Assembly: GCA_021157815.1 (NCBI GenBank)
Contig: JAGGVT010000042.1
Span: 1-36,086, forward strand
Reading direction: 5' to 3'
DNA from: a bacterium
Lineage (GTDB): Bacteria > JAJVIF01 > JAGGVT01
Length of the DNA: 36,086 nt
A model generated the notes under the pieces. The model did no database searches and was not told where the DNA came from. It was given only the letters and a program-made list of their open reading frames with translations. The translations under genes were made by a program, and so were the position numbers. Position 1 is the stretch's first letter. Each line of letters opens with the position of its first letter. Positions 28,652-30,684 of the stretch are shown here, in pieces.

Positions 28652-29464
28652 ATGATTAAAATTCCTGATGCCGATACTCTCCTTGCGGCAATCGATATAG
28701 AAACCACCGGACTGCATCCCTTCTACTCTGAAATAGTGGAGGTCGCCGCTGTTACTTTCGACCTCAACGGCAATGTCCATGAGGAATACAGCCAGCTAAT
28801 CAATCCCCAGATGCTGATTCATCCAAGGGCGATTGAGATTCACGGCATTACGGATGCCATGGTTAAGAATGAACCTGCATGGAATGAAATCGCGCCGGAA
28901 TTCTATGGCATTATCAAAAACAAAATCCTTGTCGCTCACAATGCGCCTTTCGATTTGAGCTTTCTGGCATTCAAGGGAACTGTAATCTCACAGCCGTTCG
29001 TTGATACATACTTCACCGATACGCTGACAATCTCACGAGAGATTTACCCGGAATTCAAACGCCATACACTCGTCGATTTGTCGGAAAGCCTTGGAATCGA
29101 ACTTAACAACGCCCATCGCGCGCTCGCGGATACCAAAGCCTGCATGTACCTTCTGTTGCGCGAGATTAAGGATTTTGACAGTGAATGGGATAAATTCGCA
29201 TCGCAGTATGTTTTCCACACAGCCGCATGGCAGACAATGGAAAATGTCGATGAGAAAATGAAACCGCTGATTGAAGTCTGCAAGGAAGGCTGTGACATCA
29301 TTATTGAGTATATTGACTCGGGGAAAACAAAAACAACTCGACAGATTACTCCGCTGCAATTAAACCAAATCAGGCAAGTGCCATACTTGTTTGGGCACTG
29401 CCATCTTCGCGATGCCGGACGTAATTTCCGCCTCGACCGTATTCAGAGCTGGGAAAGGGTTTGA
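28652..29464 (+). CDS. DnaQ-like 3'-5' exonuclease with a C-terminal WYL-like domain
   Basis: 270 residues. The N-terminal DEDDh exonuclease domain (about 10-172) has all catalytic residues: Asp15 and Glu17 (IDIETTG), Asp101 (AHNAPFD), His155 and Asp160 (HRALADTKA), as in the DNA polymerase III epsilon family. After a helical linker, residues about 208-268 read IIIEYIDSGK ... RQITPLQL ... PYLFGHCHLRDAGRNFRLDRI, matching the pattern of a WYL domain (Y/L core, a conserved Arg, then RxFRLDRI). WYL domains bind ligands or nucleic acid and regulate defence and DNA-damage systems, so this may be a sensor-controlled nuclease. The WYL assignment is by eye. It converges with the PH-domain gene with a gap of only 2 bp. 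The Shine-Dalgarno is weak. Confidence 0.85.
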   Translation: MIKIPDADTLLAAIDIETTGLHPFYSEIVEVAAVTFDLNGNVHEEYSQLINPQMLIHPRAIEIHGITDAMVKNEPAWNEIAPEFYGIIKNKILVAHNAPFDLSFLAFKGTVISQPFVDTYFTDTLTISREIYPEFKRHTLVDLSESLGIELNNAHRALADTKACMYLLLREIKDFDSEWDKFASQYVFHTAAWQTMENVDEKMKPLIEVCKEGCDIIIEYIDSGKTKTTRQITPLQLNQIRQVPYLFGHCHLRDAGRNFRLDRIQSWERV

Positions 29465-29943: not shown

Positions 29944-29972
29944 TTGACACACTACCGATCATATGGTATATA
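29944..29972 (+). promoter_or_regulatory. Strong sigma-70-type promoter of the hairpin leader and NYN gene
   Basis: Perfect TTGACA at 29944-29949, a 17-bp spacer, then TATATA at 29967-29972 (5 of 6 to consensus). Transcription would start at about 29979-29981, immediately before the first hairpin. This is among the best promoters in the window. Confidence 0.7.
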
Positions 29973-29984
29973 AAAAGTAATTCC

Positions 29985-30031
29985 CCCAGCGCCTTCGGGT
30001 TCTGGGCGCAAGGTCGCTTAATTGCGACCTT
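29985..30031 (+). ncRNA. Double-hairpin leader RNA upstream of the NYN gene
   Basis: Hairpin 1: CCCAGCGCC (29985-29993), a UUCG tetraloop closed by C-G, GGTTCTGGG (29998-30006); 8 of 9 positions pair, including one G-U. Hairpin 2: AAGGTCGC (30010-30017), loop TTAATT, GCGACCTT (30024-30031); a perfect 8-bp stem followed by TGCTATTATTT. The promoter places the RNA 5' end about five bases before hairpin 1, and the NYN start codon follows 17 bases after hairpin 2. It could be an attenuator, a small RNA of about 55 bases, or a binding site for the NYN protein. Family not recognised. Confidence 0.55.
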
Positions 30032-30048
30032 TGCTATTATTTAGTTTG

Positions 30049-30684
30049 ATGAAAATGAACATTTATATAGATGGATTCAATTTATATTATGGTTGTGTAA
30101 AAAACACTCCTCACAAATGGCTGGATTTATCAGCATTATGCCAAAGGATATTTCCTCGATATAACATAAACCAAATAAGGTATTTTACAGCCAGGGTGAA
30201 ACCTACAAAAAAAGACCCTCAGAAACCTCAACGACAACAAACATATATCCGTGCCCTAGAGACGATTCCAAATTTACAAATTCATTATGGACATTTTTTA
30301 TCTCAACCAAGATACAAAGTTCTAGCTAATCCTCCTTTCCCACCAAAAGATAAAATTGTCAAAGTCATTATTACTGAAGAAAAAGGTTCTGATGTCAATC
30401 TTGCCACATATCTTTTAGTTGATGGTTATGAAGGAAAGTATGATATTGCTGTAGTTATAAGCAATGATTCAGATTTGGTTGAACCTATCAGAATAGTAAA
30501 AGTAAACCTTGGCTTACCAGTTGGGGTTGTCAATCCTATTCTTGACAAAAAAATGACAAGTCATATACTAAAAGAAACAGCCAGTTTTTATTACAGGATT
30601 AAGCGCTATCAAATTTCTCATAGCCAGTTCCCAAAGACGATGCATGACCATAAAGGTTCTTTTCGTAAACCCGAAAGATGGTAA
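30049..30684 (+). CDS. NYN-domain (PIN-like, LabA/DUF88-type) putative ribonuclease
   Basis: 211 residues from the ATG at 30049; an ATG at 30055 and a TTG at 30022 are alternatives, but the TTG falls inside hairpin 2. NYN domains are metal-dependent PIN-like RNases. Acidic residues sit at the expected places: Asp8 (IYIDGFNLYYG), Asp115 (EEKGSDVNLATYLL) and Asp140/Asp142 (VVISNDSDLVEPIRI). The C-terminal motif SQFPKTMHDHKGSFRKPERW is typical of this subfamily. It is strikingly AT-rich: two 60-base lines I counted were 32% GC, against about 50% in the exonuclease gene, which suggests horizontal acquisition. No Shine-Dalgarno is visible; a two-hairpin leader occupies the 5' UTR. Substrate unknown. 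Confidence 0.85.
   Translation: MKMNIYIDGFNLYYGCVKNTPHKWLDLSALCQRIFPRYNINQIRYFTARVKPTKKDPQKPQRQQTYIRALETIPNLQIHYGHFLSQPRYKVLANPPFPPKDKIVKVIITEEKGSDVNLATYLLVDGYEGKYDIAVVISNDSDLVEPIRIVKVNLGLPVGVVNPILDKKMTSHILKETASFYYRIKRYQISHSQFPKTMHDHKGSFRKPERW

Follow-up and report, generated by a model that had tools for sequence, protein, structure and literature searches.

A covarying two-hairpin RNA beside NYN ribonuclease genes of many bacterial phyla: a candidate type III-like toxin-antitoxin module

Type III toxin-antitoxin loci are defined by the succession of a promoter, repeats, a terminator and a toxin gene, and the type III antitoxins of known structure have pseudoknots (PMC5086642). In the C. difficile AbiF-RCd22 system, AbiF is controlled by the neighboring abiF-motif RNA through direct binding, both in cis and in trans (PMC12373285), and avcID combines a type III-like RNA antitoxin with a non-ToxN toxin, the deoxycytidylate deaminase AvcD (PMC10511110). 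Together, type III toxin-antitoxin systems, AbiF-RNA and avcID show that RNA antitoxins pair with several toxin folds.

The locus reported here lies in a window of 36,086 nucleotides of bacterial DNA (the whole stretch that was analyzed) and consists of a small structured RNA and an adjoining gene for an NYN-domain ribonuclease. As in ToxIN, CptIN and TenpIN, the RNA adjoins an RNase gene and the pair is found on plasmids and phages, and the type III order of promoter, repeats, terminator and toxin is complete in enterobacterial plasmids and represented by one unit in the window. In contrast to these systems, the putative toxin is NYN/PIN-like and not of the ToxN, CptN or TenpN fold (the ToxN Pfam family does not match the window protein), the RNA usually forms one unit of two nested hairpins with no predicted pseudoknot, and the RNA gene is also found in divergent or convergent orientation. 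Because the toxin fold differs, the module falls outside the three classical type III families. It shares with AbiF the combination of a nuclease-type protein with an adjoining structured RNA, as well as a prophage setting, whereas AbiF is a HEPN (Abi_2) protein and its RNA motif is unrelated, the window matching no Rfam family. The avcID system provides a precedent for an RNA antitoxin acting with another toxin fold, but its toxin is a deaminase and its RNA is a different one. The initial annotation of this DNA, made from the sequence alone, had not recognized the combination as a described system, and our literature search, with thin coverage of subscription papers and preprints, likewise returned neither an NYN-plus-RNA module nor this RNA family.

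The RNA is preceded by a sigma-70-like promoter identified from the sequence (29944..29972, + strand), with a -35 box TTGACA at 29944-29949, a 17-nt spacer and a -10 box TATATA at 29967-29972. This promoter matches the consensus at 10/12 positions, and its -10 box lies ~6 nt ahead of the RNA 5' end, like those of other family members. The small RNA, which may serve the NYN nuclease as an antitoxin or other partner, was identified with covariance model R1 (29978..30038, + strand); its 5' end is predicted near 29978-29980 and its 3' end within the U-rich stretch past the second hairpin. Both hairpins are supported by covariation. Hairpin 1 (CCCAG-C-GCC UUCG GGU-U-CUGGG; 29985..30006, + strand) has arms at 29985-29993 and 29998-30006 around a UUCG loop, its nine positions comprising 8 pairs and one C/U mismatch. 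Hairpin 2 is terminator-like (GC-[8-bp stem AAGGUCGC/GCGACCUU]-bulged U-GC; 30008..30034, + strand), and at its core 30010-30017 pair perfectly with 30024-30031 over 8 bp. Relatives have a longer stem, to which G-C and C-G pairs enclosing a bulged nucleotide are added, and the window shares this extension (GC at 30008-30009, bulged U at 30032, GC at 30033-30034). The nuclease gene (30049..30684, + strand; 211 aa; PADLOC HEC-09, phrog_7929) starts with an ATG at 30049, 17 bases past the perfect 8-bp stem, and inspection of the sequence revealed no Shine-Dalgarno motif before it. The TTGACA-17-TATATA promoter, the 9-position UUCG stem, the perfect 8-bp hairpin at 30010-30031 and the NYN gene 17 bases downstream without a Shine-Dalgarno had all been described in the initial annotation and were found at these positions.

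The genes around the locus are ordinary-looking (a DnaQ-like exonuclease with a WYL domain, a PH-domain protein and a subtilase), and no obvious mobile element or defense island was seen among the genes neighboring the window copy. Two genes upstream of NYN, at 28652-29464 (+ strand), the DnaQ-like exonuclease domain (RNase_T) is fused to the WYL domain; WYL domains are frequent in defense regulators.

The folding z-score of the window RNA is -3.46, with 1/200 shuffles folding equally well, which by itself is suggestive of an RNA and short of decisive. What decides that the hairpins are not a chance occurrence is conservation, covariation and the match to R1. The ~60-nt RNA has two hairpins, and both stems covary across many phyla, following the pattern AUAUCCCCCC-stem-UUCG-stem-GGG, a short GC-containing linker, a second stem-loop below which GC/GC pairs enclose one bulged base, and then Us; the C-G pair and the single bulged base beneath the hairpin 2 stem are near-invariant. 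In a sequence-only alignment of 24 rows, 94.0% of cells are paired, 16/20 pairs show changes on both sides (8.2 in shuffles) and the covariation score is 0.494 (0.204 ± 0.018 when shuffled, ≤0.121 in slid controls). An alignment of 86 rows gave a score of 0.585 against 0.197, a figure that leans towards the model because the alignment was fitted to it. Hairpin 1 covaries at 9/9 pairs in the 86-row alignment and at 7/9 in the sequence-only seed alignment, and hairpin 2 at 10/11 pairs in the former. R1 was built from 24 seed sequences, the window included, so the 64.9 bits (E 3.6e-16) of the window are partly due to construction. Conservation and covariation of the hairpins upstream of homologs, which the initial annotation had made the test of its proposal, were thus both found. 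No Rfam family matched the window or 10 relatives at gathering score, and a relaxed threshold returned only chance-level matches in the window. Covariation backs two nested hairpins and no pseudoknot is predicted, although tertiary pairing may occur in a complex. In four loci (L037, L039, L047 and L056) hairpin 1 is a variant carrying a GGAGC-UUCG-GCGAA internal loop that resembles a kink-turn or tandem G.A.

NYN and PIN domains are RNases, NYN domains being metal-dependent and PIN-like, and PIN-like NYN nucleases are among the commonest RNase folds. The only Pfam match of the window protein is PF01936 (NYN), at 46.6 bits for a cut-off of 24.2. The protein also matches phrog_7929 (E 1e-66) and the PADLOC profile PDLC04163 (HEC-09) at E 7.4e-43 over positions 4-202 of 203, making it a full-length member. 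HEC-09 is a candidate named for its embedding in Hma defense loci; it is known as a protein profile, and no publication that we found assigns it an RNA component. The AlphaFold model (pLDDT 96.9) resembles VPA0982 (PDB 2QIP) and the MARF1 NYN domain, the nearest solved folds, at 9-14% identity, and we know of no RNA linked to either. The C-terminal SQFP...KPxRW motif pointed out in the initial annotation is conserved among homologs, and D8, D115, D140 and D142 are invariant among 57 of them, the window included. Since these four aspartates are invariant, the window protein is predicted to be a catalytically competent RNase.

Within the clade B of NYN proteins, which carry a zinc-ribbon insert (L252, L253, L265 and L011), a divergent two-hairpin RNA was recognized by eye; the sequence of its hairpin 1 differs, R1 missed it, and it may be a second RNA family or a subtype. 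Inspection of L253 and L265 showed that the next gene resembles DUF1156 and is apparently an Hma gene, a neighbor that the window lacks. In two gammaproteobacterial-class genomes (L282 and L290) the zinc-ribbon NYN is fused in frame to a D-alanine-D-alanine ligase-like part, forming ORFs of ~497 aa.

Searching genome and viral contigs with a single sequence returned no relatives, whereas an alignment query recovered them. NYN homologs come from many phyla and include copies carried by plasmids and prophages; the module itself is present in small plasmids, Leptospira plasmids, prophages and bacteria of more than 12 phyla. With R1, the RNA was found adjoining NYN in 77/80 of the best genome homologs, and at the other three (L079, L080 and L088) a diverged two-hairpin RNA is visible by eye just downstream on the opposite strand. 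Among viral loci, 28/54 carry the RNA at E<0.001 with R1. RNA and protein distances are correlated, also between phyla (Mantel r 0.19; 5/999 permutations as high). The observation made on this DNA is therefore far more general than one window could reveal.

Further RNA copies are present within a few kilobases at four loci (L065:667-726, L094:3251-3321, L069:4745-4798 and L068:1627-1694), some apparently without NYN, which may be solo antidotes or remnants. The genome of the window itself has a weak second match (G000:C98:4636-4695, L165; 21.3 bits) with no NYN nearby.

In the window and most relatives, the structured RNA lies beside NYN with a single upstream promoter and a terminator in between, and 22/100 loci present another orientation. 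On the protein tree, the RNA is upstream and co-directional in 78/100 loci, upstream and divergent in 7/100 (Acidobacteria and one viral contig) and downstream and convergent in 15/100, mostly Actinobacteria and mycobacterial prophages. Parsimony on the NYN tree indicates that gene order switched at least four times, two of these switches being forced by well-supported branches. Whichever of the three orders is present, a sigma-70-like promoter sits at a fixed distance from the RNA 5' end, and at least 9/12 consensus letters are present at 61/83 RNAs, against 6.4% of shuffles. Because the RNA has its own promoter in every order, it is by prediction an independent transcription unit, that is, a separate small RNA and more than a leader.

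These arrangements bear directly on whether the hairpins could be a cis-acting leader, serving as an attenuator or autoregulatory pair for the downstream NYN gene alone. The co-directional position immediately upstream in most loci, including the window, and the terminator-like hairpin 2 fit such a leader, but RNAs with their own promoter in divergent or convergent position occupy places impossible for one, and RNAs persist without NYN. We accordingly consider a leader highly improbable, and its general role as an attenuator or cis autoregulator, both among the interpretations offered in the initial annotation, is ruled out by the divergent and convergent RNAs of two other clades. Another part of that interpretation, in which NYN and a small RNA that stops at hairpin 2 make up an antitoxin-like pair, is well supported by the conserved, covarying hairpins. 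The NYN protein may also bind or cut the RNA directly, as that annotation suggested.

The same positions are relevant to a type I-like mechanism, in which an antisense RNA would pair with the NYN mRNA and block its translation. A convergent RNA is antisense to the last part of the NYN transcript, and the C-rich 5' end of the RNA could pair with G-rich ribosome sites; co-directional and divergent RNAs, however, are not antisense, and the window gene has no Shine-Dalgarno to be masked. Pairing of the RNA with its own start region was no stronger than with those of other loci (own better in 36/66 and 3/6), and at convergent loci its own was better in 9/11, by 1.2 kcal/mol. Pairing to the NYN start region is not supported by this comparison, and we regard antisense control as the least probable of the readings considered.

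The layout of several plasmid loci is closer still to that of type III systems. In ColE-like plasmids of E. coli and Klebsiella (L026, L255, L256 and L264), four tandem hairpin-1 units with a 33-nt period are followed by the terminator and then by the NYN gene, and one of these units differs from the others by compensated changes in its stem. By its anatomy, this enterobacterial layout matches that of a type III toxin-antitoxin locus. Serratia L027 apparently has two units, whereas the window has one RNA unit and most chromosomal loci are likewise single, with no tandem array. At L095:3792-3987 and L128:3249-3375, two complete two-hairpin units stand in tandem upstream of NYN.

We also performed searches starting from the RNA in the class to which L059 belongs (Anaerolineae, 396 genomes) and in a second class (369 genomes); the same search in the window's own small phylum (4 genomes) and around G032 and G098 was uninformative. 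In the Anaerolineae, the RNA was found at 51 places in 44/396 genomes, and all full-length NYN genes of the clade (24/24, at ≥259 bits) were accompanied by it. Fifty of the RNA places comprise 25 with an intact NYN, 6 with a disrupted remnant, 13 with none and 6 at contig ends, an asymmetry whose size is approximate because some broken NYN frames in these metagenome genomes may be assembly errors, at least three lone RNAs (L221, L223 and L224) are probable false positives and the RNA search favors well-kept RNAs. In the second class, 7/7 RNAs, in 7/369 genomes, lie beside an NYN gene or remnant. L177 has kept its promoter and a 71.8-bit RNA next to the final ~27 codons of NYN, and at L211 NYN carries an internal deletion. 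Such one-sided loss is the pattern expected if NYN protein without its RNA were harmful.

One-sided loss also weighs on the proposal of a positive role for the RNA, as cofactor or sensor; it would then form with NYN an active ribonucleoprotein, as scaffold or trigger, and would not inhibit. Strict linkage and covariation fit this proposal just as well, as does the membership of the protein in the candidate defense family HEC-09, and RNA copies outlasting NYN have also been counted in its favor; identical linkage would be expected if the RNA activated or guided the nuclease. However, many RNA copies with promoter-like sequences outlive the disruption or loss of NYN, and intact NYN of the clade is never without RNA. 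This speaks against a cofactor: loss of the enzyme would leave a cofactor with no purpose, whereas an inhibitor has to be retained for as long as there is active toxin. The order promoter-RNA-terminator-nuclease and the tandem units are, moreover, typical of RNA antitoxins, and on balance a cofactor role appears unlikely. The RNA could alternatively be a conserved substrate that NYN processes and that separately acts as a trans regulator in its host, with no part in toxin control. The RNase nature of NYN/PIN domains agrees with this, and NYN might recognize or cut the RNA at the near-invariant linker and the bulged base of hairpin 2, but the pair is patchily distributed, present in 44/396 and 7/369 genomes of the two classes and scattered over many phyla, plasmids and prophages, which is not what one expects of a housekeeping sRNA, leaving this role very improbable.

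The best supported reading is that the module works like type III systems, and we think it fairly probable that the locus is a type III-like module of an NYN RNase and an inhibitory RNA. Behind this reading stand a covarying RNA, its strict linkage to the NYN clade, the three gene orders, the promoter signature, the tandem hairpins of plasmids, the one-sided loss of NYN and the conserved catalytic residues; the mostly single RNA units, the lack of a predicted pseudoknot and the ordinary neighborhood of the window copy count against it. The proposed module would have two components, an RNase of NYN fold and, adjoining it, a ~60-nt RNA that has a promoter and a terminator of its own. For the window arrangement, we infer that transcription from the promoter would yield abundant RNA, stopping mostly at hairpin 2, and that occasional read-through would produce the NYN mRNA. 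The RNA would then inhibit the NYN protein by binding it directly, holding a toxic RNase inactive as a type III-like antitoxin does. Loss of the RNA, upon takeover of the host by a phage or loss of the plasmid, would free the RNase, and its activity would be directed at cellular or phage RNA.

These results point, with somewhat better than even confidence, to a widespread class of RNA-controlled nucleases, in which a compact RNA of two hairpins would keep NYN RNases in check, its gene having changed position relative to that of the nuclease (upstream, divergent or convergent) and multiplied in tandem, the pair being kept together in more than 12 phyla; this would be a new class of RNA antitoxins with a PIN-like toxin, serving phage defense or plasmid maintenance. 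HEC-09, already in use in genome annotation, appears to be half of a system, the RNA partner having been overlooked because it is 60 nt long and not in Rfam, and assays of the HEC-09 protein alone would mislead. The small natural plasmids that carry the system make testing in E. coli direct. If the reading is true, RNA antitoxins extend to PIN-like NYN nucleases.
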